Shown: one piece after another, positions 9,792 to 35,563 of the stretch | How the letters are laid out: every line of letters begins with the position of its first letter | Numbering within the stretch: the stretch's first letter is position 1 | Assembly: GCF_014489635.1 (NCBI RefSeq) | Contig: NZ_CP060828.1 | Coordinates: 8,358,001 to 8,422,000 of the forward strand | DNA: 64,000 nucleotides | Direction: 5' to 3' | Origin: Streptomyces roseirectus | Lineage (GTDB): Bacteria; Actinomycetota; Actinomycetes; Streptomycetales; Streptomycetaceae | Notes under the pieces: generated by a model | The model's input: only the letters and a program-made list of their open reading frames with translations | Databases searched by the model: none | Told to the model about the DNA's origin: nothing | Position numbers and translations under genes: made by a program

Positions 9792-10398
9792 CGCTCGCGA
9801 CGGCTTCCGTGAGGTGACGGCGGACCGGGTCGGGCAGCGGCGTGCCCTGCACGGTGGTCACCACGGTCGACGCCAGCCGGTGCAGCTTCGTGTTGGTGTT
9901 CTGCGACGCCATCACCAGCACCTCCCACGCCTCGTCCGGACTCAGCCCGAACGACGCCATCAGGATGCCCCGGGCGAGGTCGATCTCCGGCCGGGTCTGC
10001 ATGGCGCGGCGCAACTGCACGACCTCGGTGCGCAGTTCGTCGTCCACCTTCTCACGCTCCTCGACCAGCAGCGGGCGGGTGTCCGTCAGGGACAGCAGGC
10101 GCTCGGCCGCCGGGCTCGCGGCTGTCACCGTCAGCTCCTTTCCGTCGGCGAGGGCTTGTCTGCGCGCCGTCAGCAGCACGTTCAGCGCCGAGCAGTCCCA
10201 GAACTCCAGCTTCTCCAGGTCCAGTTCCACCCGGGTGACCGGTTCGCGCAGGGCCGCGCGCAAGGTGCGTTCGAGGATCCCGCTGTCGTCCAGGCACAGT
10301 TCGCCGGCGACAGTGACGACGATCCGGTCGCCGTCGCGGCGTGTGCTCAGGGTCGGCGTCGCGCGGCCTCGCTGCGCTTCGTCGGGCGGGTTCGGCAT
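9727..10398 (-). CDS. STAS-ANTAR protein (anti-anti-sigma plus RNA-binding antiterminator)
   Basis: This 223-residue protein has two domains. The N-terminal STAS domain has RVELDLEKLEFWDCSALNVL, with a Ser at the position that is phosphorylated in SpoIIAA/RsbV relatives. The C-terminal ANTAR domain (about residues 135-190; RGILMASFGLSPDEAWEVLV, then ASQNTNTKLHRLA) is of the type that binds double-hairpin RNA antiterminators. The combination suggests a switch linking partner-kinase signalling to transcription elongation. The start at 10398 was chosen for the GAGAGG site upstream rather than the longer in-frame start at 10431. The gene is divergent from a winged-helix regulator and its 3' end overlaps the membrane protein gene. 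Confidence 0.85.
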   Translation of the reverse strand: MPNPPDEAQRGRATPTLSTRRDGDRIVVTVAGELCLDDSGILERTLRAALREPVTRVELDLEKLEFWDCSALNVLLTARRQALADGKELTVTAASPAAERLLSLTDTRPLLVEEREKVDDELRTEVVQLRRAMQTRPEIDLARGILMASFGLSPDEAWEVLVMASQNTNTKLHRLASTVVTTVQGTPLPDPVRRHLTEAVASVSAPADTGEAPPRTAAPPPSR

Positions 10399-10501
10399 GG
10401 CTGCCTCTCTGTGGTGGGTACTCGCCGACAACTCCCTGTTTCCCAGCGTCGCCCCGTCACCGGTGACACGTCAAGCGATACCTGAATTCAAATTCGTCCT
10501 T

Positions 10502-10530
10502 TTGAACACGTGAATGGTTGGCCGTAGGAT
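10502..10530 (+). promoter_or_regulatory. Promoter of the winged-helix gene, leaderless
   Basis: TTGAAC (10502-10507), a 17-nt spacer and TAGGAT (10525-10530) are followed by 6 nt and the ATG at 10537. This is a good vegetative promoter placed so that transcription should start at or next to the start codon. No Shine-Dalgarno sequence is present. Confidence 0.6.
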
Positions 10531-10536
10531 TTACCC

Positions 10537-10887
10537 ATGTCTGGAGTGGATGGGGTGCCTGAGCCGCACACCGGATGGACGTTCGTCACCAATCACGCCC
10601 GCGTACTCGCGGCCATCGCCGACAACCACAGCGCGCGTATCCGCGACATCGCCGCCCGCTGCCGCCTCACCGAGCGCGCCGTGCAGAAGATCATCGCGGA
10701 CCTCGAAGAGGGCGGTTATCTCTCGCATACCCGCCGGGGGCGCAGCAATGACTACGAGATCGACCCCAGCAAGATCCTCCGCCATCCCGCCGAGGCCGGC
10801 CTCACCGTCGCCTCCCTCCTGTCGATGCTGGTCAGGGACGAGGCGGAACGGAAGGAGAGGGTGAGCGAGGGGGTGCGGGAGCGGTGA
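10537..10887 (+). CDS. Winged-helix (MarR/ArsR-like) transcriptional regulator
   Basis: This 116-residue protein is essentially one winged helix-turn-helix. HARVLAAIADNHSARIRDIA precedes a recognition region CRLTERAVQKIIADLEEGGY, and the wing is LSHTRRGRSNDYEI. The C-terminal helix (ILRHPAEAGLTVASLLSMLV) may dimerise. The effector and targets are unknown. The gene is divergent from the STAS-ANTAR gene across 138 nt of relatively AT-rich DNA, which is where its binding site would be expected. The start is supported by the adjacent leaderless-type promoter. Confidence 0.85.
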   Translation: MSGVDGVPEPHTGWTFVTNHARVLAAIADNHSARIRDIAARCRLTERAVQKIIADLEEGGYLSHTRRGRSNDYEIDPSKILRHPAEAGLTVASLLSMLVRDEAERKERVSEGVRER

Positions 10888-10973
10888 GGGGGCCTCGCAC
10901 CGGAGTGGTGAGGGTGCCCCGTGCCTCCTGACGGCCGCCGGTTTCGTCTTCGGGGGCCGGGCACTCGGAGGGG

Positions 10974-11165
10974 GTGCCGGACAGGAACGCGCGCAGGGTC
11001 CTCGCCGCCGCCGGAGAGCTGATCGCCTGGTGGGCGGCGCTCGGTGCGCTGTGGCTGGTGTACGTCAGCACCGTCGACGTCCTTGAGGTGAGCGCGGGGG
11101 CGGTCGCGGCCGGGGTCGGGGCGTGGGCCGCGCGGGCGGGGCGGCGGGCGGTGGGGCGGGGGTGA
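10974..11165 (+). CDS. Short MrpE/MbhA-like antiporter subunit
   Basis: This 63-residue protein starts at the GTG at 10974, with GGAG just upstream. It has two hydrophobic segments (LIAWWAALGALWLVYVSTVD and AVAAGVGAWAARAG) that resemble only the membrane-anchoring N-terminal part of MrpE. The usual soluble C-terminal half is missing. It is first in the antiporter operon and overlaps the next gene by 4 nt. Its assignment rests mainly on its position where MrpE/MbhA is expected. Confidence 0.6.
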   Translation: MPDRNARRVLAAAGELIAWWAALGALWLVYVSTVDVLEVSAGAVAAGVGAWAARAGRRAVGRG

Positions 11166-11737
11166 GCGGGTGGTCCGTGGCGGCCGCAGCGCCGGCCGGG
11201 GAGGCGGGGGCGTCAGGGTGGGCGGCGGCCCGTTACGCCGGGGTGTTCAGCTGGGCGGTTGCTCGCGACGCCGGGGTGAACGGGTGGGTCGTCGCCGCGA
11301 CCGTGTTGATCGGGGCCGGGCTCGCGGGGGCGCTCTGGGGAGTCGTCGCCGGGTCGCTCGCGCGGCGAGTGCTCGCGCAGAACCTCACCACGTCCGTCGC
11401 CTGTCCCGGCCTGCTTCTGCTGGCCCAGGGGTATGCCCGGCCCTCCTACGTCGACGTCGCCCTCCTGACGGCGCTGCTCGGTCCCGTCGGCACCCTCGTC
11501 TTCGCCCGGCTGCTCGCCGACGAGTTGGCCGAGGGGCCGCGCGGGGCGACGGGGCTGACCTGGGCGGCCGTCGGGGTGAGCGCGGGTGTGGTGGTCGCGG
11601 TGTGCGCGGCGACCGGGCCGGGGCGGGCGATGGTGAAGGTACTGGTCGTGGGGGCGCTGCTGATCGGGGGGAACCTGGTGGCCTCGCGGGCGCTGGCGGG
11701 GGGATACCGGGCGGTGGGGGAGGCGCGGGATGAGTGA
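11162..11737 (+). CDS. Fused MrpF-MrpG-like (MbhB-MbhC) antiporter subunit
   Basis: This 191-residue membrane protein starts at the GTG at 11162, overlapping the previous stop. After a leader of about 40 residues the middle part matches MrpF/MbhB, including RPSYVDVALLTALLGPVGTL followed by VFARLLADEL. The C-terminal part (TWAAVGVSAGVVVAVCAATG, then AMVKVLVVGALLIGGNLVAS) has the two-helix layout of MrpG/MbhC. The two subunits are separate in Bacillus Mrp and in archaeal Mbh. The N-terminal leader is rich in Ala/Gly and contains near-repeats of a short GWAAARYAG/SWAVARDAG unit. Function: part of the membrane sector of a cation/proton antiporter. Confidence 0.65.
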   Translation: MSGWSVAAAAPAGEAGASGWAAARYAGVFSWAVARDAGVNGWVVAATVLIGAGLAGALWGVVAGSLARRVLAQNLTTSVACPGLLLLAQGYARPSYVDVALLTALLGPVGTLVFARLLADELAEGPRGATGLTWAAVGVSAGVVVAVCAATGPGRAMVKVLVVGALLIGGNLVASRALAGGYRAVGEARDE

Positions 11738-11782
11738 GACGCGGCGCATGGGCAACGGCGGCCCAGGCGAGGGGAGTTGCCC

Positions 11783-12043
11783 GTGGCCGAGCCTCTGATC
11801 GCCGTCGTCCTGGTCCTCGTCGCCGGCACCGCGACCGCCGCCGTCCTCACCCGTGACCCCGTCCGGCAGGCCCTCGTCCTGTCCGTGCTCGGTGTCGATC
11901 TCGCCGTGCTGTTCACGGTGTTGCAGGCCCCGGACGTCGCGCTCTCGCAGCTCGCCGTGGGTTCGGCGCTGACGCCGCTGCTGATCATGCTGACCGTGCG
12001 GACGGTCGGCAGGAAGAGCGGCCGGAAGAGTGGCCGGAAGTGA
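11783..12043 (+). CDS. MbhD-like subunit (MrpA C-terminal DUF4040 domain)
   Basis: This 86-residue hydrophobic protein starts at the GTG at 11783, 6 nt after GGGGAG; a TTG at 11777 is possible but too close to that site. The core VLSVLGVDLAVLFTVLQAPD followed by VALSQLAVGSALTPLLIM is typical of the DUF4040 domain, which is the first C-terminal domain of MrpA and stands alone as MbhD. The tail is basic ([11 protein letters not shown]), with a small 12-nt repeat in the DNA. It overlaps the next gene by 4 nt, so the two are translationally coupled. Confidence 0.72.
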   Translation: MAEPLIAVVLVLVAGTATAAVLTRDPVRQALVLSVLGVDLAVLFTVLQAPDVALSQLAVGSALTPLLIMLTVRTVGRKSGRKSGRK

Positions 12044-12768
12044 ACCGGCGTGCACGGGCCGGGGTGTTGGCGGTCGGCGGCGTGGGAGTGGCCTTCCTGC
12101 TCGTCGCGGCATGTCTGAACCTGCCCGCGTTCGGCGGGAGTCGGCACCCGTACGGGGCCAGAGCCGTCACCGTCTCCCTCGACCGGCACACAGCGAACAC
12201 CGTCGCGTTCCTCAACTTCGACCCGCGCGCGTACGACACGCTCGGCGAGGTCGCCATCATGTTCACGGCGGTCCTCGGCTGCGTCGTCCTGCTCCGGCAG
12301 GCCCGCGGCGAGCACCGAGAACCGCCCGCCACGGCCGAAGTCGCCCCGCCTGTACGGCGATACGCCCTGCTGGTCCTCCCCGTCGCCCTGCTGACCGGCG
12401 GGTACGTCGTCGCCCACGGGCAGCTCAGCCCCGGCGGCGGTTTCCAGGGCGGGGTGGTCGCCGCGACGGCGCTGCACCTGCTGTACCTCGGCGCCGACTA
12501 CCGGGCGCTGGAGCGGATCAGACCGCTCGCCGCGTACGAGGCCGCCGACGCGCTGGCCGTCTTCGCCTACCTGGCCGTCGGCCTCGCGGCCCTGTTCGGC
12601 GGCGCCGCGTTCCTCACCAACTCCCTGCTGCCGTACGGGGAGTTCAACACGCTCGCGTCAGGGGGAACCGTACCGCTGCTGAACGCGGCCGTCGGCGTGG
12701 AGGTCACCTGCGCCGTGGTGGTGCTGCTCGCCCGCTTCCTGGAACAGACCGTCGAGATCGAGGGCTGA
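12040..12768 (+). CDS. Fused MbhE-MrpB (MbhF) antiporter subunit
   Basis: This 242-residue membrane protein starts at the GTG at 12040. The N-terminal third contains [20 protein letters not shown] followed by a hydrophobic helix, the signature of the extreme C-terminal domain of MrpA, which is separate as MbhE in archaea. From about residue 110 it is MrpB (MnhB domain), with [20 protein letters not shown] and the conserved [20 protein letters not shown]. So MbhE and MbhF are encoded as one protein. It overlaps mrpC by 3 nt (TGATG). Confidence 0.75.
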
Positions 12769-25758: not shown

Positions 25759-26124
25759 ATGACCTACTGCATCAGCAAGGAGTTCCACTTCTCGGCGAGC
25801 CATCAGCTCGACGGGTTGCCTGGTGACCACCCCTGCGGACGGCTGCACGGGCACAACTACGTGGTGTCGATGGAGCTCTCCGCACTCACGGACGAACTGG
25901 ACGACGTCGGTTTCGTGCGCGACTACGGAGACCTGAGGGATTTCAAGGTCTGGCTGGACGACGAGGTGGACCACCAGCACCTCAACAAGGTCGTCGGGGA
26001 CCGCAACCCGACCGCCGAGAACCTCGCGCGCTGGCTGTTCGAGCGATGGCGCGGACGCTACCCGGAACTGGTGGCGGTCCGGGTGGCGGAGACCCCCAAG
26101 ACATGGGCGGAGTACCGCAGGTGA
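25759..26124 (+). CDS. queD: 6-carboxytetrahydropterin synthase QueD
   Basis: This 121-residue enzyme converts 7,8-dihydroneopterin triphosphate to 6-carboxy-5,6,7,8-tetrahydropterin, the second step to preQ0. The zinc ligands and active site are intact: FHFSASHQLDG, the catalytic Cys and His in HPCGRLHGHNYVV, and DHQHLNKVVG then NPTAENLARWLFER. The ATG has GGAGGTGAGCG upstream. It is first in the operon queD-queE-folE, and its stop overlaps the original queE GTG by 4 nt. Confidence 0.93.
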   Translation: MTYCISKEFHFSASHQLDGLPGDHPCGRLHGHNYVVSMELSALTDELDDVGFVRDYGDLRDFKVWLDDEVDHQHLNKVVGDRNPTAENLARWLFERWRGRYPELVAVRVAETPKTWAEYRR

Positions 26125-26216
26125 CCGCACGCGACGCCAGCCCGTCGACGCGGACAGGGGGTGGTGCCGTCGTGGAACCGAAGCTCGTCGTGAACGAGAT
26201 CTTCGGCCCGACTTGA
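26121..26216 (+). pseudogene. queE: Detached 5' end of queE
   Basis: This frame opens at the GTG overlapping the queD stop and encodes VEPKLVVNEIFGPT, which is exactly the conserved first strand of QueE. It then ends at a TGA (26214-26216). The continuation QGEGPSLGRRCAFVRLGGC is in another frame. Removing 8 nt (26214-26221) would restore one open frame reading FGPT-VQGEGPSLG, so this fragment and the downstream frame are two halves of one gene. Confidence 0.75.
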
Positions 26217-26890
26217 GGGCCGTGCAGGGAGAAGGGCCCTCACTGGGCCGGCGCTGCGCCTTCGTCCGGCTCGGCGGCTGCAACCTGGGCTGTTCGTGGT
26301 GCGACACGCCGTACACCTGGGACTGGACCGGCAGTGGCGACTCCGGGAGGGCGTGGGACCCCCGCGCGGAGCTGCACGCGATGCCGTGGCAGGAGGTCGC
26401 CGGACTGCTGCGGGCCTTCGCGGCGGAGCTGATCGTGGTGTCCGGCGGGGAGCCGCTGAACCAGCAGCGCCGCCTGGTGCCGCTGCTGCGCGACCTGACC
26501 GGGCACGGACACCTGGTGGAGATCGAGACGAACGGCACGGTGGTGCCCGCCCCCGAAGTGGCGGCGCTGGTCCGCTTCAACGTGTCCCCCAAGCTCGCCC
26601 ACTCCGGTGAGCCGCGGGCACGGCGCATCGTGCCGGAGGCGCTGGCCGCGCTGGCGGCGCTGCCGGGCACGGCGTTCAAGTTCGTCTGCCGGGGTCCCGG
26701 GGACCTGGACGAGGTCGCGGAGATCACGGCGCACCTCGGCGGCGCTCCTGTGTGGATCATGCCCGCGGCGCGGTCGCGGGCAGAGCTGGACCGCAATCTC
26801 GCCGCGCTCGGCGACGCTGTGGTGGCCCGTGGATGGAATCTGACAACTCGGCTGCACATCTCGGTGTGGGGTGACCGGAGGGGTACATGA
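26213..26890 (+). CDS. queE: 7-carboxy-7-deazaguanine synthase QueE, 5' disrupted
   Basis: This radical SAM enzyme makes 7-carboxy-7-deazaguanine from 6-carboxytetrahydropterin. The intact frame holds QGEGPSLGRRCAFVRLGG, the [4Fe-4S] cysteine motif CNLGCSWCDTPYTWDW (CX3CX2C), VVSGGEPLNQQR and VEIETNGT. The N-terminal strand is missing from this frame because of an apparent 8-nt insertion. Possible restarts are the TTG at 26213 or the GTG at 26222, neither with a good ribosome site; a -1 slip at 26213 would join the halves with three extra residues. Whether the enzyme is active is therefore open. It overlaps folE by 4 nt (ATGA). Confidence 0.85.
   Translation: MRAVQGEGPSLGRRCAFVRLGGCNLGCSWCDTPYTWDWTGSGDSGRAWDPRAELHAMPWQEVAGLLRAFAAELIVVSGGEPLNQQRRLVPLLRDLTGHGHLVEIETNGTVVPAPEVAALVRFNVSPKLAHSGEPRARRIVPEALAALAALPGTAFKFVCRGPGDLDEVAEITAHLGGAPVWIMPAARSRAELDRNLAALGDAVVARGWNLTTRLHISVWGDRRGT
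26214..26242. repeat. 8-bp inverted repeat at the queE break
   Basis: TGAGGGCC (26214-26221) and GGCCCTCA (26235-26242) are perfect complements with a 13-nt loop. The left arm is precisely the 8 nt that break the queE frame; the right arm encodes the conserved GPS of QGEGPS. This is the pattern left by a template-switch (quasipalindrome) mutation. Confidence 0.8.
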
Positions 26891-27480
26891 CGACGACGCA
26901 CGACGAACGCACCGGCACGGCGAACGAGCCGGAACAGACCCGCGACCCGTTGGAGGACATCGCACGACAACTGCTGGTGGAGATCGGTGAGAACCCGGAC
27001 CGTGACGGCCTGAAGGAGACACCGGCCCGGTTCGCCCGCTGGTGGCGGGAGTTCAGCCAGTACGACGCCGGCAACACCAGCACCAGCTTCCCGATCTCCA
27101 CCAGCGGTCAGATGGTCATGGTGGGAGACATCCGGCTGTGGTCGCTGTGCGAGCACCATCTGCTGCCGTTCAACTGTTCGGTCACCATCGCCTACCGGCC
27201 GCTGGGCGACGTCCTCGGCCTGTCCAAGTTCGCCCGCATCGCGCATCGCCACGCGCACCGGCTCCAGGTGCAGGAGCGGCTTGTACAGGACATCGCCGAC
27301 GAGGTCGGCGCGGTGACCGGTTCACCGGACGTCGCGGTGGTCGCCCAGGGCGAGCACCTGTGCATGAGCATGCGCGGGATCCGGACCCCGGCCCGGATGA
27401 CCTCCTCGGTCTTCCGGGGAGTCTTCGAGGAGTACGGCCCGGTCCGCCAGGAACTGATCGCCATCGCCTTCCCCGGCTGA
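26887..27480 (+). CDS. folE: GTP cyclohydrolase I FolE
   Basis: This 197-residue enzyme converts GTP to 7,8-dihydroneopterin triphosphate, the entry to both folate and preQ0. The zinc and catalytic motifs are complete: LWSLCEHHLLPFNCSVTIAY, GLSKFARIAHRHAHRLQVQE and EHLCMSMRGIRTP. Being inside the preQ0 operon, it is probably a pathway-dedicated copy that adds to the housekeeping folE elsewhere. It overlaps queE by 4 nt. Confidence 0.94.
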   Translation: MTTTHDERTGTANEPEQTRDPLEDIARQLLVEIGENPDRDGLKETPARFARWWREFSQYDAGNTSTSFPISTSGQMVMVGDIRLWSLCEHHLLPFNCSVTIAYRPLGDVLGLSKFARIAHRHAHRLQVQERLVQDIADEVGAVTGSPDVAVVAQGEHLCMSMRGIRTPARMTSSVFRGVFEEYGPVRQELIAIAFPG

Positions 27481-27482
27481 GC

Positions 27483-27521
27483 GCGGGGGCCGCCGGTGAC
27501 ACTCCGCCGGACGGCCCCCGC
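27483..27521 (+). terminator. Hairpin between folE and the glycosyltransferase genes
   Basis: Arms 27483-27492 and 27512-27521 (GCGGGGGCCG and its complement) enclose a 19-nt loop that itself holds a CCGG/CCGG pair. It fills most of the 59-nt gap. It could reduce read-through from the preQ0 genes into the glycosyltransferases or stabilise the upstream mRNA. Confidence 0.5.
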
Positions 27522-27539
27522 CCTCGTGAGGAGTCCCAG

Positions 27540-28748
27540 ATGAACGTCGCCTTCGTCCTGCTGACCTACGCCCCCGACGAACCCGCAGGAGTCGAACGGG
27601 CCGTCGACTCGCTCGCGGACGGCCTGCGCGCGGCCGGCCACGACGCACTGATCATCGCGGCCGGACCGGCCCACCCCGGGGACGGCCCCCACGTGGTCCG
27701 GCTCGACTCGGTCACCCTTCCCCGCCCGCTGCTCTTCGACGACCTGCCCCAGCTCTTCGAGCACTCCGCGCCGGTGCGCCGCGAGGTGCTGGACATCCTC
27801 GGCCGGTTCGAGGCCGACGTCGTGTGCTGGGCCGACGCCGTGGTGGGCCTCGGCTTCCTCAACCCCGCACCGCCCGGCGCGCGCACCGCGCTCATGGTGC
27901 ACTTCCTGCGCGTGGACGACCACATGCGGCGCGCCCTGGCACACCGTCCCGACGTGGTCCTCCCGGTCAGCCCGTTCATGATCGACGAGGCGGTGCGCGC
28001 CGGACTCGACACCACCGACTGGCGTGCGCTGCCCAACGCCCTGCCCGGCGGGCGGGCCGGGCACGGCACCGTGCCGGACGCCGCGGAACGTGAACGGCTG
28101 CGCCGGACCGGCCCGGTGCGGATCGTCACCCGCGCCGACCCGTCCAAGGGCATCACGGAACTGCTGGACGCCTGCCCCCGCGACCTCGGCAGGCCGGTCC
28201 AGATCGTCATCGCCGAGGCGGGATTCGAGCTGTGGCCGGGCATGCAGGCCGACATGATCGAGGCCGCCCGGTCACGGGCCGCGGCCCTGCCGGACGTCGA
28301 GGTGCTGCCCGCGATCCCCTGGCAGGAGGTGCAGCCCTTCCTGGCCGGGGCCGCCCTCACGCTGGTGCCCTCCACGAGCCCGGAGACCTTCGGCAACGTC
28401 GCCGCGGAGTCCCTGTCGGCCGGCACGCCGGTGGTCGGCTACGGCTTCGGCCACCTGCCGGTGCTGGTCGGCGGGGCGGGACGGCTGGTGGACCTCGACG
28501 TGGTGCACGGCTTCGGCCACCTGCCGGCGCTGACCGGCAGCACGCTGCGGACCAACGACTTCACCGCCGGCGCCGGCCGTCTCTGGCAGGCCGCCACCGA
28601 CCTGCTGGCCGACCCGGACGCCTACCGGGCCGCCGCGCGGCAGGCGCTGCGCCAGGTGGCGCCGCTGTCGCCCGAGGCCGTGGCCGCCGAGTTCCTGCGG
28701 CTCACGGCCGGCGCACCGGCACCCGCTCGCGCACCGGGCGGGGAGTAG
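27540..28748 (+). CDS. Glycosyltransferase family 4-like
   Basis: This 402-residue GT-B fold enzyme starts MNVAFVLLTYAPDEPAGVER with a preceding GTGAGGAG site. The C-terminal donor domain has RIVTRADPSKGITELLDACP and the GT4 motif PSTSPETFGNVAAESLSAGT, with the two catalytic-region glutamates. In this cluster it may attach a sugar to the deazapurine base or extend a sugar chain; donor and acceptor are unknown. A near-exact repeat (GFGHLPVL/GFGHLPAL, 22 residues apart) lies in the donor domain. It is followed after 2 nt by the next glycosyltransferase. Confidence 0.82.
   Translation: MNVAFVLLTYAPDEPAGVERAVDSLADGLRAAGHDALIIAAGPAHPGDGPHVVRLDSVTLPRPLLFDDLPQLFEHSAPVRREVLDILGRFEADVVCWADAVVGLGFLNPAPPGARTALMVHFLRVDDHMRRALAHRPDVVLPVSPFMIDEAVRAGLDTTDWRALPNALPGGRAGHGTVPDAAERERLRRTGPVRIVTRADPSKGITELLDACPRDLGRPVQIVIAEAGFELWPGMQADMIEAARSRAAALPDVEVLPAIPWQEVQPFLAGAALTLVPSTSPETFGNVAAESLSAGTPVVGYGFGHLPVLVGGAGRLVDLDVVHGFGHLPALTGSTLRTNDFTAGAGRLWQAATDLLADPDAYRAAARQALRQVAPLSPEAVAAEFLRLTAGAPAPARAPGGE
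28441..28532 (+). repeat. 66-bp-spaced direct repeat in the GT4 gene
   Basis: The 26-nt segment at 28441-28466 recurs at 28507-28532 with one mismatch. It encodes GFGHLPVL and GFGHLPAL. The 66-nt period equals 22 codons, which fits an in-frame tandem duplication followed by divergence of the remainder. Confidence 0.7.
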
Positions 28749-28750
28749 AC

Positions 28751-30001
28751 ATGGCGGCGCGCCCCTCGGCCACCGTCGTCATACCGACCTACAACCGCGC
28801 GGAACTGCTGCGGGGCACCCTGACGGCGCTGGCCGCGAACCGGCCGCCCGACGAGGGCCCCTTCGAGGTGGTGGTGGCCGACGACGGATCGACCGACCAC
28901 ACACGGGAGGTGGTCCGGGAGTCCGGCGACCGGCTGACGGTGCGCCACGTCTTCCAGGAGGACCGGGGCTTCCGGGCCGCCGCCGCGCGCAACGCCGGTG
29001 CCCGGCCGGCCTCGGCACCGGTGCTGGTCTTCCTCGACGCGGGAGTGCGGCCCGGTCCCGACTTCGTCCGCGCCCACCTGGCCGCCCACGCCCGCGGGCG
29101 CCGCGCGGTGATCGGCTACACCCACGGCTACCGGCCGGACCTGAGCCCGCCGGACGTCCTCGCCGCCGCCCGGCGGGACCTCGCCCCCGCCGAGGCGGTG
29201 CGCCGGCACGGCGACGCGGACGCGCTGCGCGACGTCCGGCAGCCGGTGTTCGAACGGTTCGGGTACGACCTGGCGGACGCGCTGGTGCCGTGGCAGTGGT
29301 TCTGGTCCGTCAACTGCTCGGTGAACACCTCGGACTTCCGGGCCGCCGGCGGCTTCGACGAGGACTTCCGCAGCTGGGGCGGCGAGGACCTCGACCTCGG
29401 CTACCGGCTGCACCGGGGCGGCACCGCCTTCACGGTCAGCCGGGCGGCCTGGGCGCTGGACACCCCGCACGAGCGGTCCACGGGCGCCGACCTGGCCAGC
29501 AACGCGGCCAACATCGGGATGCTCGCCGACAAGCACCCCGAACCGGTGACGGAGCTGCTGTGGGCCTTCTTCGCCCGGCCCGCCGACCGGTTCGAGATCC
29601 GCCACGAGTGGAACGTCGAGGACGAGTACCGCCTCGTCCTGGCGGCCGCCGAGCAGGCGCGCGGCACCGACGTACGCGCCGAACTCGCCCCGCTGCGCGA
29701 GGTCGCCGGCGATCAGCGGGTCGTCGTCCTGGGCTGCGGCGCCGAGCCGCCCACCGGCCTCGCCGCCGGCGTCCGGCTGTTCGACTTCGACGGCCGGCTC
29801 GCGGGGCTCTCCGGCCCGGGGGGACGGGTGGGGCACGCTCTCGGGGTCCGGCTGCCCTTCGCCGACGGTTCGGTGGACCGGATCCTGGTCACCTCCCGGC
29901 TGTCGGGTCTGTGGGAGCGCTGGCAGGCGCACATCCTGGCGGAAGGACGCCGGCTGGGGGCCCAGGTGGACGTCCCCTTCCTGAGCCGGACCGTCCGGTA
30001 G
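28751..30001 (+). CDS. Glycosyltransferase family 2 with galactosyltransferase-like C-terminal motif
   Basis: This 416-residue protein has an N-terminal GT-A domain: ATVVIPTYNRAELLRGTLTA, VVVADDGSTD and RNAGARPASAPVLVFLDAGV. It also carries the Glyco_transf_7C signature DFRAAGGFDEDFRSWGGEDL with the conserved ED. Residues beyond about 320 form an extra domain (VVVLGCGAEPPTGLA, then LPFADGSVDRILVTSRL) that recalls a degenerate Rossmann methyltransferase. The normal DXD appears as LDA, so metal binding may be altered. It pairs with the GT4 enzyme, suggesting a disaccharide or two independent sugars on the product. Confidence 0.82.
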   Translation: MAARPSATVVIPTYNRAELLRGTLTALAANRPPDEGPFEVVVADDGSTDHTREVVRESGDRLTVRHVFQEDRGFRAAAARNAGARPASAPVLVFLDAGVRPGPDFVRAHLAAHARGRRAVIGYTHGYRPDLSPPDVLAAARRDLAPAEAVRRHGDADALRDVRQPVFERFGYDLADALVPWQWFWSVNCSVNTSDFRAAGGFDEDFRSWGGEDLDLGYRLHRGGTAFTVSRAAWALDTPHERSTGADLASNAANIGMLADKHPEPVTELLWAFFARPADRFEIRHEWNVEDEYRLVLAAAEQARGTDVRAELAPLREVAGDQRVVVLGCGAEPPTGLAAGVRLFDFDGRLAGLSGPGGRVGHALGVRLPFADGSVDRILVTSRLSGLWERWQAHILAEGRRLGAQVDVPFLSRTVR

Positions 30002-30015
30002 CCGGTTCGGGTGGG

Positions 30016-30051
30016 CGTGGTGCCCGGCGACACGCGTCGCCGGGCACCACG
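30016..30051. terminator. Bidirectional terminator
   Basis: Perfect 16-bp arms (30016-30031 and 30036-30051) with a 4-nt loop ACGC lie between the convergent GT2 and FkbM genes, ending 1 nt before the FkbM stop. It should stop transcription from both sides. Confidence 0.8.
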
Positions 30052-30052
30052 C

Positions 30053-30832
30053 TCAGGCGGCCCGGGGTACCGCGCGGACCGCGTGGACGAGATACGTGCG
30101 GATGTCGGCCGGGATGAGCGGAGCGGGACGCGCGGTGGCGGTCAGGCCCCGCAGCTCCAGCAGCGCGAGGACCGCGTCGAGCCGGCCGTCCAGGTCCTGC
30201 ACCTCCAGCACGATCTGGCCGATGAGCGGCCAGTGGGCGGCGTCGATGCCTTGCAGCACGTCGAGTTCGGCGCCCTCCACGTCGATCTTCAGCAGCGCGA
30301 CCGGCTCACCGCCGGACAGGAAGGCGGACAGGCGCTCCACGCGCACCGGGACCCGGGTGCCGGTGTAGTGCCGGCGGACGTAGTCCGGTGAGCCCTCGCG
30401 GGACAGGACGTCGATCTGGAGTTCCTTCTGCTCGGGATAGCGGGTGGAGTTGCCGGGTGCCCTCGGGTAGTAGACGAAGGGCACGGACTCCTCCGTCCGG
30501 GCGCCGAGCGCGCACTCCCGCACCGTCACCGTCTCCGCCATGCCGTGCAGGGCGAGATTGCGGCGCAGCGCGGCCAATGTGTGCGGCATGGGCTCGAAGG
30601 CGAGGATCCGTGCCGTGGGGGCGGCCCGGTGCACGAAGTAGCTGAAGAGGCCGATGTTGGCGCCGACGTCCAGGACGAGCGCGTCGGCCGGCAGCCGCAC
30701 GTCGTCGTAGCAGCCCTCCTGGAACATCTCCGCGTACTGCCAGCGGGCCTCGGCCTCGTGGGGGACCCAGAACCAGGTGCCGGCGGCCAGCTCGACCTTG
30801 TGCGGACCGGTGCCGGCGGCGACGGCGCTCAC
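30053..30832 (-). CDS. FkbM-family methyltransferase
   Basis: This 259-residue SAM-dependent enzyme has the FkbM pattern: VLDVGANIGLFSYFVHRAAP near residue 55, ILAFEPMPHTLAALRRNLAL, and LLKIDVEGAELDVLQGIDAA near residue 180. FkbM enzymes O-methylate sugars or polyketides, so methylation of a sugar hydroxyl on the cluster product is a reasonable guess. It overlaps queC by 4 nt (GTGA) and is thus translationally tied to preQ0 synthesis. Confidence 0.87.
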   Translation of the reverse strand: MSAVAAGTGPHKVELAAGTWFWVPHEAEARWQYAEMFQEGCYDDVRLPADALVLDVGANIGLFSYFVHRAAPTARILAFEPMPHTLAALRRNLALHGMAETVTVRECALGARTEESVPFVYYPRAPGNSTRYPEQKELQIDVLSREGSPDYVRRHYTGTRVPVRVERLSAFLSGGEPVALLKIDVEGAELDVLQGIDAAHWPLIGQIVLEVQDLDGRLDAVLALLELRGLTATARPAPLIPADIRTYLVHAVRAVPRAA

Positions 30833-31581
30833 CGGGCCGCCGGCGGGGCGAAGAGGGTGGTGTCGTCCAGGTAGCGCGTGGGGTCGGGGACCTTGGCCTC
30901 CCGGAACGCCTCACGGCGCTCGTAGCAGGTGCCGCAGGTGCCGCAGTGGGCCTCGCCGCCCTTGTAGCAGGACCAGCTGAGCTCCAGCGGCGCGCCGAGC
31001 CGCGTGCCGTGCCCGGCGATCTGTCCCTTGGTCCAGGTCATGAAGGGCGCCTCCACGCGTGGCGTCGGGAAGCCCTCGTTGGCGACGGTGACCAGCTCCC
31101 GCAGCGCGGTCAGGAAGACCGGGCGGCAGTCGGGGTAGATGAAGTGGTCCCCGGCGTGCATGCCGAGCGCGACGGTCCCGGCCCGGCGGGCGACCGCCAC
31201 GGACACGGCGGCATTGGCGAGGACCGCGTTGCGGTTCGGCACCACCGTGGCCCGCATGGACTGCTCGGCGTAGTGGCCGTCGGGGACGTCGACACCTCCG
31301 TCGGTGAGCGCGGAACCGCTCAGGAGCGCGCCGAGTCCGGTGAGGTCGAGGACATGGTGGGCGGCGCCGTAGTGCGCGGCGACCCGGCGGGCCGACTCGA
31401 TCTCCTTCCGGTGGCGCTGGCCGTAGTCGACGGTGAGTGCCACCAGCCGGTGCCGCAGCGCCGTGTAGTGGGCCATCAAGGTGGTGGAGTCCATGCCGCC
31501 GGACAGGACGACGAGGGTGAGGAAGGGGTCCGGCGCGTCCTTGCCGTCGCCGGCGTCCGGCGTGGCGGGGTCTGCGGTCAT
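30829..31581 (-). CDS. queC: 7-cyano-7-deazaguanine (preQ0) synthase QueC
   Basis: This 250-residue enzyme turns 7-carboxy-7-deazaguanine into preQ0 with ATP and ammonia. It has the PP-loop LVVLSGGMDSTTLMAHY near residue 25, ALTVDYGQRHRKEI, VVPNRNAVLANAA and the zinc site SCYKGGEAHCGTCGTCYERR with its cysteines intact. About 18 residues precede the fold. It is the fourth preQ0 gene in the cluster but on the opposite strand to queD-queE-folE, in an operon with the FkbM methyltransferase. Confidence 0.94.
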   Translation of the reverse strand: MTADPATPDAGDGKDAPDPFLTLVVLSGGMDSTTLMAHYTALRHRLVALTVDYGQRHRKEIESARRVAAHYGAAHHVLDLTGLGALLSGSALTDGGVDVPDGHYAEQSMRATVVPNRNAVLANAAVSVAVARRAGTVALGMHAGDHFIYPDCRPVFLTALRELVTVANEGFPTPRVEAPFMTWTKGQIAGHGTRLGAPLELSWSCYKGGEAHCGTCGTCYERREAFREAKVPDPTRYLDDTTLFAPPAAR

Positions 31582-31631
31582 CGTGTGCCTCTCTCTGGCC
31601 GGTCACGGGAGTCGGGCGGACCGGTGCGGCA

Positions 31632-31662
31632 TCCGGCGGACGGGGGGAACCGTTCCGCCGGA
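31632..31662. terminator. Hairpin between the LAL regulator gene and queC
   Basis: Arms TCCGGCGGA (31632-31640) and TCCGCCGGA (31654-31662) are perfect complements around a 13-nt loop. The hairpin is in the 218-nt gap downstream of the LAL gene and upstream of queC, so it may end the regulator transcript. Confidence 0.45.
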
Positions 31663-31799
31663 CCGGGGCGCCGGTCAGTGCCTCGCGTCCTGCGAGTCTG
31701 TGCCGGGCCCCTGCCCCGGCACATCACGGCCGGGTCCGAAGGCGGTGCCCCCGCCCACCGAAGGAAGACAGGCACCGGCCACGTCGCCGGGCGGCCGGC

Positions 31800-34688
31800 C
31801 TAGGTCCGACGAGCGTCGGGGGCGCTGGTGAGCAGGGTCCACAGGCCGGGGGCGCGGAACAGGCCGGGAAAGCCGTCGCGCCCGGAGATGGCGAGCTTGC
31901 GGTAGGCGCTGGAGAGGTGAAGTTCGACGGTGCGGCGGGTGATGGTCCGCTTCTGGGAGATACGCCTGTTGGTCAGGCCGCGCATGGCGTCCACCAGGAT
32001 CTCGCGCTCGCGCGGGGTGAGCGAGAGCACTCCGCCCAGCGAGGCGTGCAGAGCCGTGTCGCCGTTGAGGACCAGGATGCGCTGGCCGGCGCGGAGCGCG
32101 AGTTCTCCGGCGCCGCAGCGCTCGGCCAGTTCCACCGCGCGCGTGAGCGCGTCCACCGACTCTCTCCGGCGCCCCTGCCGTGCGTCGAGGTCGGCCAGGT
32201 CCGTGAGGGCCGCGGCGAGGTCCAGCGGAGCGTGGTCCGGCGTCAATACCGTGACGGCCTCGCGCAGCAGCGCCTCGGCGCCGTGGGCGTCGACCCGCGC
32301 CGCGGCGCGCAGGGCACGGCCCAGTTCGAAGGCGGAGCCACTGGCACGGGCGAACCGGAGCTGCTGCTCGGCCAGGGTACGGGCCTCGACGACGGCACCG
32401 ATCTGGTCGAGGAGTTCGACGCCGTGCGCGCGCCACAGGCTCGTTCCGGTGCGGCGCAGGCCGTCCGCGCGAGCACGGCGCCGCAGTTCCCCGAGGTCGC
32501 GTGCGGCGTCCGGCAGCGCGCCGAGTCCTACGGCGCACCGGGCGCGGGCCAGCAGCAGATCCTGATGCCGGTGCCCCGCGGGCAGGCGGCCGAGCCAGCC
32601 GCCGTCGCGCAGCAGGTTCTGAGCCTTGTCGAGTTCTCCCCGGCCGACCAGGACGTTGGCGAGCATGCCCGCCGTGTCGGCGCGCAGGGCGGGAGCGCCG
32701 TCCGGGCCGTCGAGGACGGTGAGGGCCGCGGTGAGTGATCGGCAGGCGGCGTCGAGGTCGCCCTGGACGCACGCTATCTGCCCGGCGACGTACAGCAGTT
32801 CCGCCCGCCCGCCGTAGGGCGCGGCGGCGGACGCCTCCGCCGGGGTGCCCGCGATCCGGTTCAGGTGGGAGGCGGCCTCGGCGGGGTGGCCGCTGTCGGT
32901 GAGCACGGTCAGCGCGGCGGTGAACGCCGTCGGACACACGTCGGACCAGCGGCCGCCGCGGGCGAGAGCGGCGCGGGCGCGGTCGACCGAGTGACGCGGG
33001 CTGTCGTCGACGAGGTACTCGTAGTAGGCGGCGACGGCCTCCACGACGGTCTGCAAGGGTCCGCCGCCATGCGGGTCGGCAGGAGCGTCGCTCGCGCGGC
33101 GACGCGCCAGGCCGGCGTCGGGCCGCAGATGCGCGGGCAGGCCGCGCAAGAGGTGCGACGCCTCGGCCGGTGGCACCTTGTCGAGCCGGAGGGCCAGCCG
33201 GTGCACCCGGGGCCAGTCCTCGAACACGGTGTGGTGCAGCGCCGAGGCGACCGCGTCGAGGACGGCGGTGCCGGTGGTGGCGGCGCCGGGCGCCGAGAGC
33301 ACGCGCCCGAGACGGGCAAGCAGGGCGCTGCGGGTCGCATCCTCCCTGGCGCAGCTGAGCAGAGCGGCCAGAGCGTGCGGGCCGCCGTCGGCATCGTGGT
33401 TCATGCGGAGGTCGGCGAGCGCGAGGATGGCCCGGTGCCGCTCGTCGCCGGCGGCGCTGCCCGCGACGATCTCCAGGTAGCGGCGGGCGGTGCCGTCGTG
33501 GCCCGCCTGCCGCGCGGCGCCGGCCGCGCGCAGCATCACGTCGGCCGACCAGTTCTCGTGGTGGGGCACGGTGGAGGCGCTGAGGTGATCGGCCACCTGT
33601 TGCGCGGGCGCGTGACGCTCGTGCAGATAAGCGGCGGCGGAGAGACTGACGGCGTTGCGGGCCAGTCGTGTCATGGAGCCGAGCAAGGCGTGCGCGACCA
33701 GGGGATGCCGCAGCGCCGGCTCGTCGCCGTCCGTGATCAACCCGGCGCGTGCCAGCACGTCGAGCCCTTCCAGGGTCTCCACCAGGCCGAGCCCGCTGAG
33801 GTGCGCGATCAGAGCGGGATCGGCGCCACCGGAGTTCCCGGCCACCGCGACGGTCTCGGCGAGGCGCACCGCGTGCGTGTGCTGCCGTGCGGCCCGTCCG
33901 ACGAACAGGTCGCCGGCGGCCGGGAGGACCACGGAGTCCAGCTCGTCGGGGCCAGGCCGGGGGGACGCGTCGCGCAGATGAGCCGCGAGCGCGGCCAGCA
34001 GATAGGGGTTTCCCGCGGTCAGCCGATGGCACGCGGCGGTGAGACGGCTGCCGGGGCGCCCGGCGAGAAGCGGCCGAAGCAGCTCACCGGTCTCCCGGGG
34101 CGTCAGCCCCTCCAGCGTCAGCCGCCGCGCGCCCAGCGTCAGCTCCCGGTACGTGTCAGGGGCCGACGGCGCTTCTCCCGCCCGCTCGGTGAGCAGCACG
34201 AGCAGCGGCAGCCGCACGGACTCCGCCATGACGCGCAGCACCCGCTGAAGGCGGACGGCACCGGCGCAGTTGGCGTCGTCCACCATGAGGACCGCCGGCT
34301 CCCTGCCGCGCAGCGCCGCCACCAGGGCACCCTTCGGCCCGACCGGGACGGGTGCGTGCGGGTCCCCGGCGACGCCGATCAGGCTCGTCCCCCTGCCGGT
34401 GAGCGAGGACCCGGCCACCAGGGCCGGTGAGTGGAAACAGCCGGCCGGCACACGGGGTCCGCGCTCGGCCCGCGTCTGGTCGGCCGACTCCATCACGGGG
34501 ACACCGCGGGCCCGGCATCCGCTGAGGAAAGCGCCCAGCAGCGCGGTGCGTCCGATGCCGGTCTCCCCTGAGACCACACACCGCACCATGCCTTCCTCGA
34601 CGGTGTCGTCAAGGGCCCGGTACAGCGCCTGAAGCACGTCATGACGGCCGACGAACGCCTTTTTCCCGGTGATGACCGTTCGAATCAT
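31800..34688 (-). CDS. LAL-type LuxR transcriptional regulator
   Basis: This 962-residue regulator has an N-terminal AAA+/NB-ARC-like ATPase, a long helical TPR-like middle and a C-terminal LuxR helix-turn-helix (LSLTPREREILVDAMRGLTN, then RTVELHLSSAYRKL, about residues 890-940). Large LAL proteins are typical pathway-specific activators of Streptomyces gene clusters. The Walker A reads SGETGIGRTALL (residues 40-51), with Arg47 in place of the usual Lys; Walker B is AVLMVDD. Loss of the Lys may weaken ATP hydrolysis. The start at 34688 overlaps the upstream methyltransferase gene by 4 nt. Confidence 0.9.
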   Translation of the reverse strand: MIRTVITGKKAFVGRHDVLQALYRALDDTVEEGMVRCVVSGETGIGRTALLGAFLSGCRARGVPVMESADQTRAERGPRVPAGCFHSPALVAGSSLTGRGTSLIGVAGDPHAPVPVGPKGALVAALRGREPAVLMVDDANCAGAVRLQRVLRVMAESVRLPLLVLLTERAGEAPSAPDTYRELTLGARRLTLEGLTPRETGELLRPLLAGRPGSRLTAACHRLTAGNPYLLAALAAHLRDASPRPGPDELDSVVLPAAGDLFVGRAARQHTHAVRLAETVAVAGNSGGADPALIAHLSGLGLVETLEGLDVLARAGLITDGDEPALRHPLVAHALLGSMTRLARNAVSLSAAAYLHERHAPAQQVADHLSASTVPHHENWSADVMLRAAGAARQAGHDGTARRYLEIVAGSAAGDERHRAILALADLRMNHDADGGPHALAALLSCAREDATRSALLARLGRVLSAPGAATTGTAVLDAVASALHHTVFEDWPRVHRLALRLDKVPPAEASHLLRGLPAHLRPDAGLARRRASDAPADPHGGGPLQTVVEAVAAYYEYLVDDSPRHSVDRARAALARGGRWSDVCPTAFTAALTVLTDSGHPAEAASHLNRIAGTPAEASAAAPYGGRAELLYVAGQIACVQGDLDAACRSLTAALTVLDGPDGAPALRADTAGMLANVLVGRGELDKAQNLLRDGGWLGRLPAGHRHQDLLLARARCAVGLGALPDAARDLGELRRRARADGLRRTGTSLWRAHGVELLDQIGAVVEARTLAEQQLRFARASGSAFELGRALRAAARVDAHGAEALLREAVTVLTPDHAPLDLAAALTDLADLDARQGRRRESVDALTRAVELAERCGAGELALRAGQRILVLNGDTALHASLGGVLSLTPREREILVDAMRGLTNRRISQKRTITRRTVELHLSSAYRKLAISGRDGFPGLFRAPGLWTLLTSAPDARRT

Positions 34689-35563
34689 ACGGCCACCAGG
34701 ACAATGCCCTGGTCTCCTATGGCGTAGGGCCGGAGAGCGAAGTGCCGGTGAAGTGCCGGCCGCAGCGCCTCCCGCATTTCGGCCGCGCGCGGATGACCCT
34801 CGTACCAGAAATCCGTCAAGAGGGCGGCAGCGGCGGTAATGCGCTCCTCCAGGTCGGGCTCGGAGAAGTGCAGCGCGGCTTCGGTGCGGTGCAGCGAAAT
34901 GTCGGTGAAGCCGAGTCCGCTCAGCGTGCGGACGGCGTCGGCGAGCAGATGGCCCTGATGGTCGTGCGGCTCCCCGGCGAGCGGGACGCACACCTCGTTG
35001 AGGAGACTGACGAGCTCGTTGTCCGGGGCCCCGCCGATCAGCACGACACGGCCGCCGGGCGCGCTCCGGTCACAGACCCGGGCCATCTCCCTGACCGCGC
35101 GGTCGGGATCCTCCGCGTAGGGCAGCACCCAGCAGGCCAGCACCGCGTCGAAGGACGCGTCCGGGAAGGGCAGGGCCTCGGCGTGCCCGGGTAAGACCTC
35201 GATCCCGCCGGTGCGCGGCACGTCCGGGGCCTGAGCGGAGCCGTCGGGGGCCTGAAGCACCTCGACGCGGCGGGCGTGCGGCTCCACCGTGACGCAGCGC
35301 TCGACCCGGGCCGCGACCGCGCGGGTGAGTTCACCGGTGCCGCCGCCGACGTCCAGCACCCGGCGGCTGGTGGCGACGGCGGCGAGGACCGCGGAGACCT
35401 CCTCGCGGCGTTCCAGACGCTCGACGAAGTTGAGCCACCCGTGGTGGCTGAGCCGGTGCGGACCGCGGTAACGGGAGGGCCTGCGGTCCAGCGGGCCGAA
35501 GAACGGATGGGCGGCAAAGTCCGTTGCCGGGAGAGCGACCGCGGCGGATTTCAGCGTGTCCAC
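34685..35563 (-). CDS. SAM-dependent methyltransferase (class I)
   Basis: This 292-residue enzyme has the SAM-binding motif I RRVLDVGGGTGELTRAVA near residue 70, an acidic motif II (CVTVEPHARRVEVL), and the Methyltransf_11 segment AEALPFPDASFDAVLACWVL. The GTG start at 35563 has GACGAGG close upstream. It precedes and overlaps the LAL regulator gene, so the two are one transcript at the right edge of the deazapurine cluster. Candidate target: the deazapurine base or a sugar. Confidence 0.85.
   Translation of the reverse strand: MDTLKSAAVALPATDFAAHPFFGPLDRRPSRYRGPHRLSHHGWLNFVERLERREEVSAVLAAVATSRRVLDVGGGTGELTRAVAARVERCVTVEPHARRVEVLQAPDGSAQAPDVPRTGGIEVLPGHAEALPFPDASFDAVLACWVLPYAEDPDRAVREMARVCDRSAPGGRVVLIGGAPDNELVSLLNEVCVPLAGEPHDHQGHLLADAVRTLSGLGFTDISLHRTEAALHFSEPDLEERITAAAALLTDFWYEGHPRAAEMREALRPALHRHFALRPYAIGDQGIVLVAV

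Follow-up and report, generated by a model that had tools for sequence, protein, structure and literature searches.

How is an enzyme made from a gene that a stop codon interrupts after 14 codons, and what does the gene cluster around it produce? Both questions are raised by queE, one of four genes for the 7-deazapurine precursor preQ0 that lie together within 64,000 nucleotides of Streptomyces roseirectus DNA (contig NZ_CP060828.1, positions 8,358,001 to 8,422,000; this whole stretch is called the window below, and the host genome is a single contig of 9.95 Mb). We read the window as holding a 7-deazapurine glycoside cluster of the huimycin/dapiramicin kind whose QueE would be produced by a programmed stop-hop, a form of translational bypassing, and give this joint reading a probability of about 0.72.

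The window queE starts with GTG at 26172 and encodes VEPKLVVNEIFGPT before a TGA at 26214-26216; its remainder, VQGEGPS..., begins at 26222, 8 nt past the Thr codon and out of frame. In solved QueE the segment EIFGPTIQGEG is unbroken, and leaving out the gap restores a continuous FGPT-x-QGEG. Two open reading frames (ORFs) separated by a gap encode one conserved protein here, which is the arrangement characteristic of bypassing. The genome holds a single queE match at E<=1e-25. A sequence-only reading of this DNA had taken queE for an ordinary gene and missed that its first 14 codons are cut off by a TGA; the genes on its list otherwise stand, with the addition that the glycosyltransferase of family GT2 carries an extra C-terminal domain of about 130 residues.

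Junctions of queE were read in 392 genomes of the genus (52 matched at E<=1e-25, 30 loci read), 346 of the Kutzneria family (6 matches at E<=1e-60), 300 of the Micromonospora family (8 matches) and 389 of the class (7 matches, own included), together with two plasmid loci and loci found earlier; incomplete matches, such as the broken copy of S. iranensis (L037), were filtered out. Among these, 22 distinct junctions proved split and 24 unsplit, 11 were unclassed by motif, and two more split junctions were added later, making 24 split ones. Eleven plus one junctions without the GGxCCxACx motif were dropped, their N-termini being in frame as other motifs. The numbers 22 and 24 count distinct junctions, not independent origins, and the start-codon and hairpin-energy checks described below cover 22 of the 24. 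One further genome of the genus (G294) has a queE region identical to that of S. zingiberis (L007). Split junctions occur in Streptomyces, Kutzneria, the Micromonospora family and family f17, and in several cluster types: the window type, the huimycin type (L008), clusters with oxygenase-like genes (L100, L128) and, with gene labels taken from translated starts rather than from Pfam, toyocamycin-like clusters (L087, L089; reductase-, adenylosuccinate lyase/synthetase-, phosphoribosyltransferase (PRTase)- and HAD-like genes) and tubercidin-like clusters (L096, L099, L101; reductase-, PRTase-, decarboxylase- and Nudix-like genes).

The gaps comprise 14 sequences: TGAGGGCC, TGACC, TGAGGGACC, TAGCGCC, TAGCACC, TGAGCACC, TGAACC, TAGTCC, TAGGGCT, TGAGTCC, TAACGCC, TGAGGCC, TAGCGCT and AGACC. 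They measure 5, 6, 7, 8 and 9 nt in 4, 4, 10, 5 and 1 junctions, respectively. Since these lengths cover all three frames, no single frameshift or readthrough fits all cases, and a single +1 or -1 frameshift was dropped as an explanation. The take-off codon is ACC in 13 junctions and ACT in 11, and in 23 of 24, the window included, a stop follows directly (first gap codon TGA 14, TAG 8, TAA 1 and AGA 1). The gap ends in ACC (10), GCC (9), TCC (3) or GCT (2), hence in NCC/NCT in all 24, a class that makes up 15% of upstream triplets; the base before CC/CT is A, G or T and never C. After the gap comes Val, Ile, Phe or, in L121, Leu, followed by Gln, and the first ORF has 14-15 codons in the 22 listed junctions, counted from the nearest ATG/GTG. 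The stop after Thr and the NCC/NCT ending are together what one would expect if a peptidyl-tRNA(Thr, GGU) let go of ACC/ACT and formed two or three base pairs at the new triplet.

The split queE thus fits a programmed stop-hop. In the proposed mechanism, the ribosome would translate 14 codons and meet the stop with Thr-tRNA(GGU), which we take to be the peptidyl-tRNA at take-off, in its P site. It would then disengage, move 5-9 nt forward (8 in the window), re-pair at the NCC/NCT triplet and resume decoding at the next codon (Val in the window), giving one continuous QueE with FGPT-V-QGEG. A possible role of the hairpin immediately upstream is to pull on the mRNA, as proposed for the 5' stem-loop of T4 gene 60. 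This hairpin averages -11.0 kcal/mol in the 22 split genes, whereas 18 intact relatives average -6.3 kcal/mol (Mann-Whitney 5e-7, uncorrected for relatedness); in all 22 it also exceeds the mean stability of its own synonymous-codon shuffles (mean z -1.43, against +0.28 for the intact genes). Over 19 distinct rows, 93.8% of cells are paired. Against column shuffles, RNA structure reaches z -8.1 upstream of the site and -1.5 around it; conserved structure downstream was dropped (z 0.11). The 3' part of the window hairpin (26184-26207) has one exact match in its own genome.

Several observations weigh against a hop. The hairpin energy test ignores relatedness, covariation in the hairpin does not rise above shuffles (36 of 500 as high), and for the window hairpin region 21 of 200 shuffled versions are as stable. 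Only 10 of the 24 junctions have ACC as their landing triplet; the other 14, with the GCC of the window among them, have GCC, GCT or TCC. L121 has no stop after its Thr codon, though the AGA in that place, a codon used for 3 of 653 Arg residues in 15 window genes, counts on the side of the hop. Intact queE occurs in some relatives, and L058 is intact inside a mostly split clade; because some of these relatives are close, the split must have been gained or lost more than once (the queE tree needs four split/intact label changes, of which its starred branches force three). Finally, some junctions offer a restart codon, which would permit termination followed by reinitiation: a 14-residue leader, a restart a few nt on, and a QueE without its first residues. 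In the window a TTG (26213) overlaps the stop as TTGA and a GTG (26222) precedes QGEG; a restart codon is available in 9 of 22 junctions, the window included (GTG at -3 in 6, only TTG in 3), and an S. chartreusis record annotates queE from the GTG before QGEG. We nevertheless consider reinitiation unlikely, as the remaining 13 junctions lack an ATG, GTG or TTG downstream of the last stop in the frame of QGEG, and 11 of these have no start until beyond the FeS-cluster motif. Moreover, the putative leader corresponds to the conserved N-terminus of QueE, which runs unbroken in the solved protein, and the NCC/NCT at every gap end would be left unexplained.

Quite improbable, in our view, is recoding of a different kind in each lineage, with stop readthrough at the 6- or 9-nt gaps and +1 or -1 frameshifting elsewhere. 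The gap lengths modulo 3 do include 0, 1 and 2; however, a single hop rule accounts for every case, frame class varies between close relatives (L071 with TGACC groups with L070 and L073, both TAGTCC), and no homopolymer slip site was seen by eye. We give very little credence to a decaying or wrongly sequenced gene: queE, queC and the methyltransferase gene of S. iranensis L037 are truly in pieces, but across many genomes the 24 distinct junctions sit at precisely the same place, the remainder of the gene is open in those read, the host genome has a single queE match at E<=1e-25, and production of huimycin, tubercidin and toyocamycin in new hosts has been reported for clusters of these types (PMC7439116, PMC6112128, PMC7492574), though from strains other than those whose queE DNA was read here.

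The programmed stop-hop has partial precedents. Like the split queE, T4 gene 60 has a stop after the take-off codon, a coding gap, a 5' stem-loop that may pull the mRNA and the possibility of resumption in another frame (PMC5009743, PMC11194080). Its gap is 50 nt long, whereas those of queE span 5-9 nt with a landing triplet that often matches just partly; queE also differs in its nascent chain of 14-15 residues and in being a chromosomal or plasmid enzyme gene. In the stop-hops described in PMC5009743, a peptidyl-tRNA passes over a stop and lands a few nt further along, on a triplet that matches or nearly matches, as we propose for queE; those constructs are synthetic, while the queE junctions are natural. 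According to that 2016 review, natural in-frame stop-hops were not known, and bypassing is likely in the Streptomyces phage Hau3. Among the papers listed in the literature searches, none was seen to describe a hop in queE, toyC or tubB. On the evidence of the junctions, we lean towards a family of natural, very short hops over a stop that gate QueE in bacterial 7-deazapurine antibiotic clusters, with the upstream hairpin as a zipper; if the hop is confirmed, the split queE would be a new variant of programmed bypassing.

The genes that surround the split queE are listed in Table 1.

Table 1. Features of the split queE and of the cluster in the window (MT, methyltransferase).
Feature	Positions	Strand	Support or remark
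queD, 6-carboxytetrahydropterin synthase, 121 aa	25759..26124	+	PF01242, 109 bits; CxxxHGH motif
queE first ORF, 14 codons VEPKLVVNEIFGPT, then TGA	26172..26216	+	N-terminal motif precedes the gap in 24/24 split junctions
Hairpin CCGAAG-CTCGT-loop-ACGAG-AT-CTTCGG	26178..26206	+	Ends 4 nt before the take-off codon
Take-off codon ACT (Thr of FGPT)	26211..26213	+	ACC or ACT in 24/24 junctions
8-nt coding gap TGAGGGCC: TGA after take-off, proposed landing triplet GCC at 26219-26221	26214..26221	+	
queE second part (VQGEGPS...), CX3CX2C radical SAM enzyme	26222..26890	+	PF04055; CNLGCSWC
folE, GTP cyclohydrolase I	26887..27480	+	PF01227, 172 bits
GT4 glycosyltransferase, HuiG-like; proposed first sugar on base N2	27540..28748	+	Homology
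GT2 glycosyltransferase with extra C-terminal domain; proposed second sugar	28751..30001	+	Homology
FkbM-family MT; proposed sugar O-methylation	30053..30832	-	PF05050, TIGR01444
queC, preQ0 synthase	30829..31581	-	PF06508, 199 bits
LAL/LuxR-type regulator, 962 aa, start 34688	31800..34688	-	PF00196 above cut-off, AAA_16 below cut-off
Class I MT, HuiC-like; proposed preQ0 O6-methylation	34685..35563	-	PF08241

All nine genes are backed by Pfam/NCBIfam matches and show the expected motif, and their grouping is kept in relatives, which bears out the gene content given by the sequence-only reading. They run queD-queE-folE-GT4-GT2 on the plus strand and queC-fkbM and MT-LAL on the minus strand, with 4-nt overlaps at queE/folE, queC/fkbM and MT/LAL. 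This layout agrees with the three transcription units proposed earlier, but because LAL and queC lie 218 nt apart on one strand, the number may be two or three. Ten neighbouring proteins that were scanned seem unrelated: eight are of LigD primase-type, oxidoreductase, hemerythrin, transketolase, DUF6328, catalase, glyoxalase and aldehyde dehydrogenase families, and two have no family. As had been claimed, no PRTase gene is near (no PF00156 match among the 20 window proteins scanned), and the claim that queF and tgt are absent nearby extends to the whole genome, where neither was matched. We give next to no weight to preQ0 for tRNA queuosine or DNA 7-deazaguanine, pathways that the same four genes feed, because TGT and QueF have no match genome-wide (control genomes positive in 14/14 and 8/14, respectively), no TGT-family match speaks for a DNA system (the DpdA/DpdB models themselves were not run), and GT and MT partners are conserved beside the que genes; the queuosine role was dropped on the TGT and QueF results, and the que genes do not appear to belong to a tRNA or DNA system outside the window, a possibility that had been raised against the cluster. 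The genome has one strong QueC, and two weaker matches sit in longer frames.

A profile search of the GTDB genome set with the GT4 returned 14 loci. At least one preQ0 gene adjoins the GT4 in 14/14 and at least three in 13/14 (some of them broken in L012), L011 being the locus with queC as its only preQ0 gene; the co-occurrence check that had been suggested thus came out positive, and the GT4 was not found to travel without que genes. S. zingiberis (L007) and Streptomyces MP131-18 (L010) carry all nine genes in identical order, so the grouping is not due to chance. The MT has a partner 53-79% identical (tblastn) in six of six genomes searched, in loci with preQ0 genes. The GT2 (E<=1e-60) occurs in 7 of the 392 genus genomes and stands beside a GT4 and a preQ0 gene in 3 of the 7, own included. 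Eight window genes, all but FkbM, have relatives in a huimycin-type locus of Kutzneria viridogrisea (L008), ordered LAL, queC, MT, queD, queE, folE, GT4, carbamoyltransferase, PNPOx, MT, GT4, GT2, which is the published order of huiA-huiG plus KALB_4074-4078 (PMC7439116). Identities to the L008 proteins are about 60% for the window MT (HuiC position), 57% (HuiG position) and 70% (KALB_4077 position) for the GT4, and 67% (KALB_4078 position) for the GT2. In the GT4 tree, seven GT2-adjacent GT4s fall on one side of a branch with modest support (75/94), and eight GT4s of another cluster type are set apart (100/98).

The four preQ0 genes, the HuiC-like MT, the HuiG-like GT4 and the LAL-type regulator are found together as in the huimycin type, and the gene content also includes the two glycosyltransferases, MT and FkbM that dapiramicin would call for, with substrates that we infer. 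The PRTase that would use phosphoribosyl pyrophosphate for ribosylation in toyocamycin and tubercidin clusters has no match among the 20 window proteins scanned; those clusters share the genes for preQ0 and 7-carboxy-7-deazaguanine with it, and similar clusters also have a split queE, but they hold PRTase-type genes where the window has GT4 and GT2. The huimycin cluster of Kutzneria albida resembles the window in its regulator, QueC, HuiC-type MT, QueD, QueE, FolE and GT4 (PMC7439116). K. albida was compared by its published order; its K. viridogrisea relative L008 has a split queE too. The window differs by its FkbM and by a single GT4-GT2 pair that is nearer to the KALB_4077/4078 pair. The window therewith appears to be a new member of the huimycin/dapiramicin cluster kind, and its product is probably a glycosylated, methylated preQ0 with two sugars. 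FolE, QueD, QueE and QueC would supply preQ0, the HuiC-like MT would methylate O6 of the base, the GT4 would place a first sugar on the 2-amino group and the ValG-like GT2 a second, FkbM would methylate a sugar hydroxyl, and the LAL would control expression. The sugar-bearing, O-methylated preQ0 derivative with possibly two sugars that the sequence-only reading had predicted is well supported by the huimycin-type and Micromonospora loci; what we add is a placement of the methyl groups, one presumably on O6 and one on a sugar.

Members of the GT4 family are retaining and those of the GT2 family inverting. The GT4 model matches generic GT4 enzymes (GlgM, MshA, PimA, tetrahydrobiopterin glucosyltransferases), so that donor and acceptor cannot be told from it. 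FkbM gave no sequence match in the PDB. For the GT2, an AlphaFold model (mean predicted local distance difference test score 90.9) shows helices and strands beyond the GT-A part; its best PDB match by sequence and by fold is chondroitin polymerase, and in the Pfam/NCBIfam scan it matched GT7C as well as GT2. In 42 aligned proteins the tail has conserved GCG/GAG, FDFD-like and TSR-type stretches, and its fold may be a degenerate version of that of a methyltransferase. The GT2 belongs to a ValG-like family, at least 4 of 120 listed homologues being named 'validoxylamine A glucosyltransferase' (JGI), and ValG glucosylates C4' of validoxylamine A (PMC12041759). A copy 46% identical lies in a cluster (L050) with dehydroquinate synthase-like, TreT-like, HAD, NTP-transferase and ROK genes.

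The dapiramicins come from Micromonospora SF-1917 (PMC8944786), and dapiramicin A combines the aglycone m6preQ0 with an alpha-linked first sugar, a beta-linked second sugar and a sugar O-methyl (PMC8450960). The HuiC-like MT, GT4, GT2 and FkbM of the window match these features of dapiramicin A/B. The Micromonospora-type GT4 was found in 2 of 160 Micromonospora genomes, and both loci hold MT, LAL, GT2, folE, queE, queD, queC, fkbM, RmlD-type, RmlB-type and GT4 genes. No RmlC-type gene was seen among their called ORFs, not all of which were Pfam-scanned. This gene set appears to match dapiramicin A: RmlB and RmlD without RmlC would give a 6-deoxyglucose, GT4 the alpha and GT2 the beta bond, FkbM the sugar methyl and the HuiC-like MT the O6-methyl. 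The window cluster, by comparison, carries no RmlB-type gene: none of the 16 RmlB-type matches of the genome lies in the window (RmlD was not searched separately), and an rml operon sits elsewhere, at 6.365 Mb. RmlB/RmlD-type genes were likewise not found in L007, L008, L010 and L011. Because 6-deoxyglucose genes were not found in the window, we speak of a dapiramicin-like rather than a dapiramicin cluster.

A huimycin-like mono-glycoside or another disaccharide is a possible product too, though to us the less probable one. It would agree with the missing RmlB-type match and the separate rml operon, which leave the identity of the first sugar uncertain, with sugar donors that are unreadable from sequence, and with the GlcNAc (N-acetylglucosamine) transfer proposed for HuiG (PMC7439116). 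According to the same source, deletion of huiC abolishes huimycin and KALB_4074 to KALB_4078 are not needed for it, so the pair at the KALB_4077/4078 position, equivalent to that of the window, is dispensable there, which also counts against our reading. On the other side, GT2 and FkbM are retained in L007, L009 and L010, and the window GT4 groups, with modest support, with other GT2-adjacent GT4s. In L008 itself, a GT4-GT2 pair close to that of the window lies beside huimycin-type genes (10001-12453); since the matching KALB_4077/4078 are dispensable for huimycin, analogy suggests that a second, dapiramicin-like product may be overlooked in that strain.

Further clusters were noted along the way. 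S. griseus NCTC13033 (L016, 4135-16281) has a second kind of preQ0 cluster, ordered queC-queD-queE-DUF6884-PRTase-PIG-L-like-WbqC-folE-FGE_sulfatase-GT4-reverse transcriptase (RT)-like-GT-exonuclease-HAD-aminotransferase, whose GT4 is 46-56% identical to that of the window. L004, L013-L015 and L017 are similar and L018-L020 partly so; the Pfam scans covered parts of L016 and of L004. The RT of these clusters has DN where DD is usual (by eye), and a diversity-generating retroelement was rejected, as six loci held no direct repeat of 80 nt at >=72%. S. iranensis has two adjacent preQ0 clusters (L037, L038), of which one has a truncated GT4 and fragmented queE, queC and MT genes. An S. angustmyceticus plasmid (L084, from annotation) and L091 (from translated starts) share another type with unsplit queE, which adds a class I MT, an aspartyl/asparaginyl hydroxylase-domain protein, a 2-oxoglutarate-Fe oxygenase and an ATP-grasp gene. 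L126 and L127 (genomes G1340 and G1457; same class, family f17) are MT-LAL-queC-queE-folE clusters with no GT4 match within 16 kb and with a queD match of 32% in L127 and none in L126; they are possible m6preQ0 makers. On a plasmid of Streptomyces BB1-1-1 (L006, 7969-20788), a relative of the window GT2 (46%) has genes for GTP cyclohydrolase II, thymidine phosphorylase and ABC transporters nearby; this may be a nucleoside-like cluster of another type.

According to PMC7439116, dapiramicin had no known cluster in 2020, and the Micromonospora loci now offer candidate dapiramicin genes. If true, the hop would also explain an odd QueE annotation: TubB is listed as 139 aa (PMC6112128), against 237 aa in the intact relative L091. 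A cosmid is nevertheless reported to yield tubercidin in S. coelicolor, and ToyB and ToyD carry consecutive accessions with none between them for ToyC (PMC6112128). Production of toyocamycin from the toy cluster in S. albus is also reported (PMC7492574). As of 2016, the main established cases of such decoding were one phage gene, yeast mitochondria and synthetic constructs (PMC5009743). The split queE genes would, if the hop holds, add two dozen natural, testable examples, and would place a translational gate at the entry to an antibiotic class.

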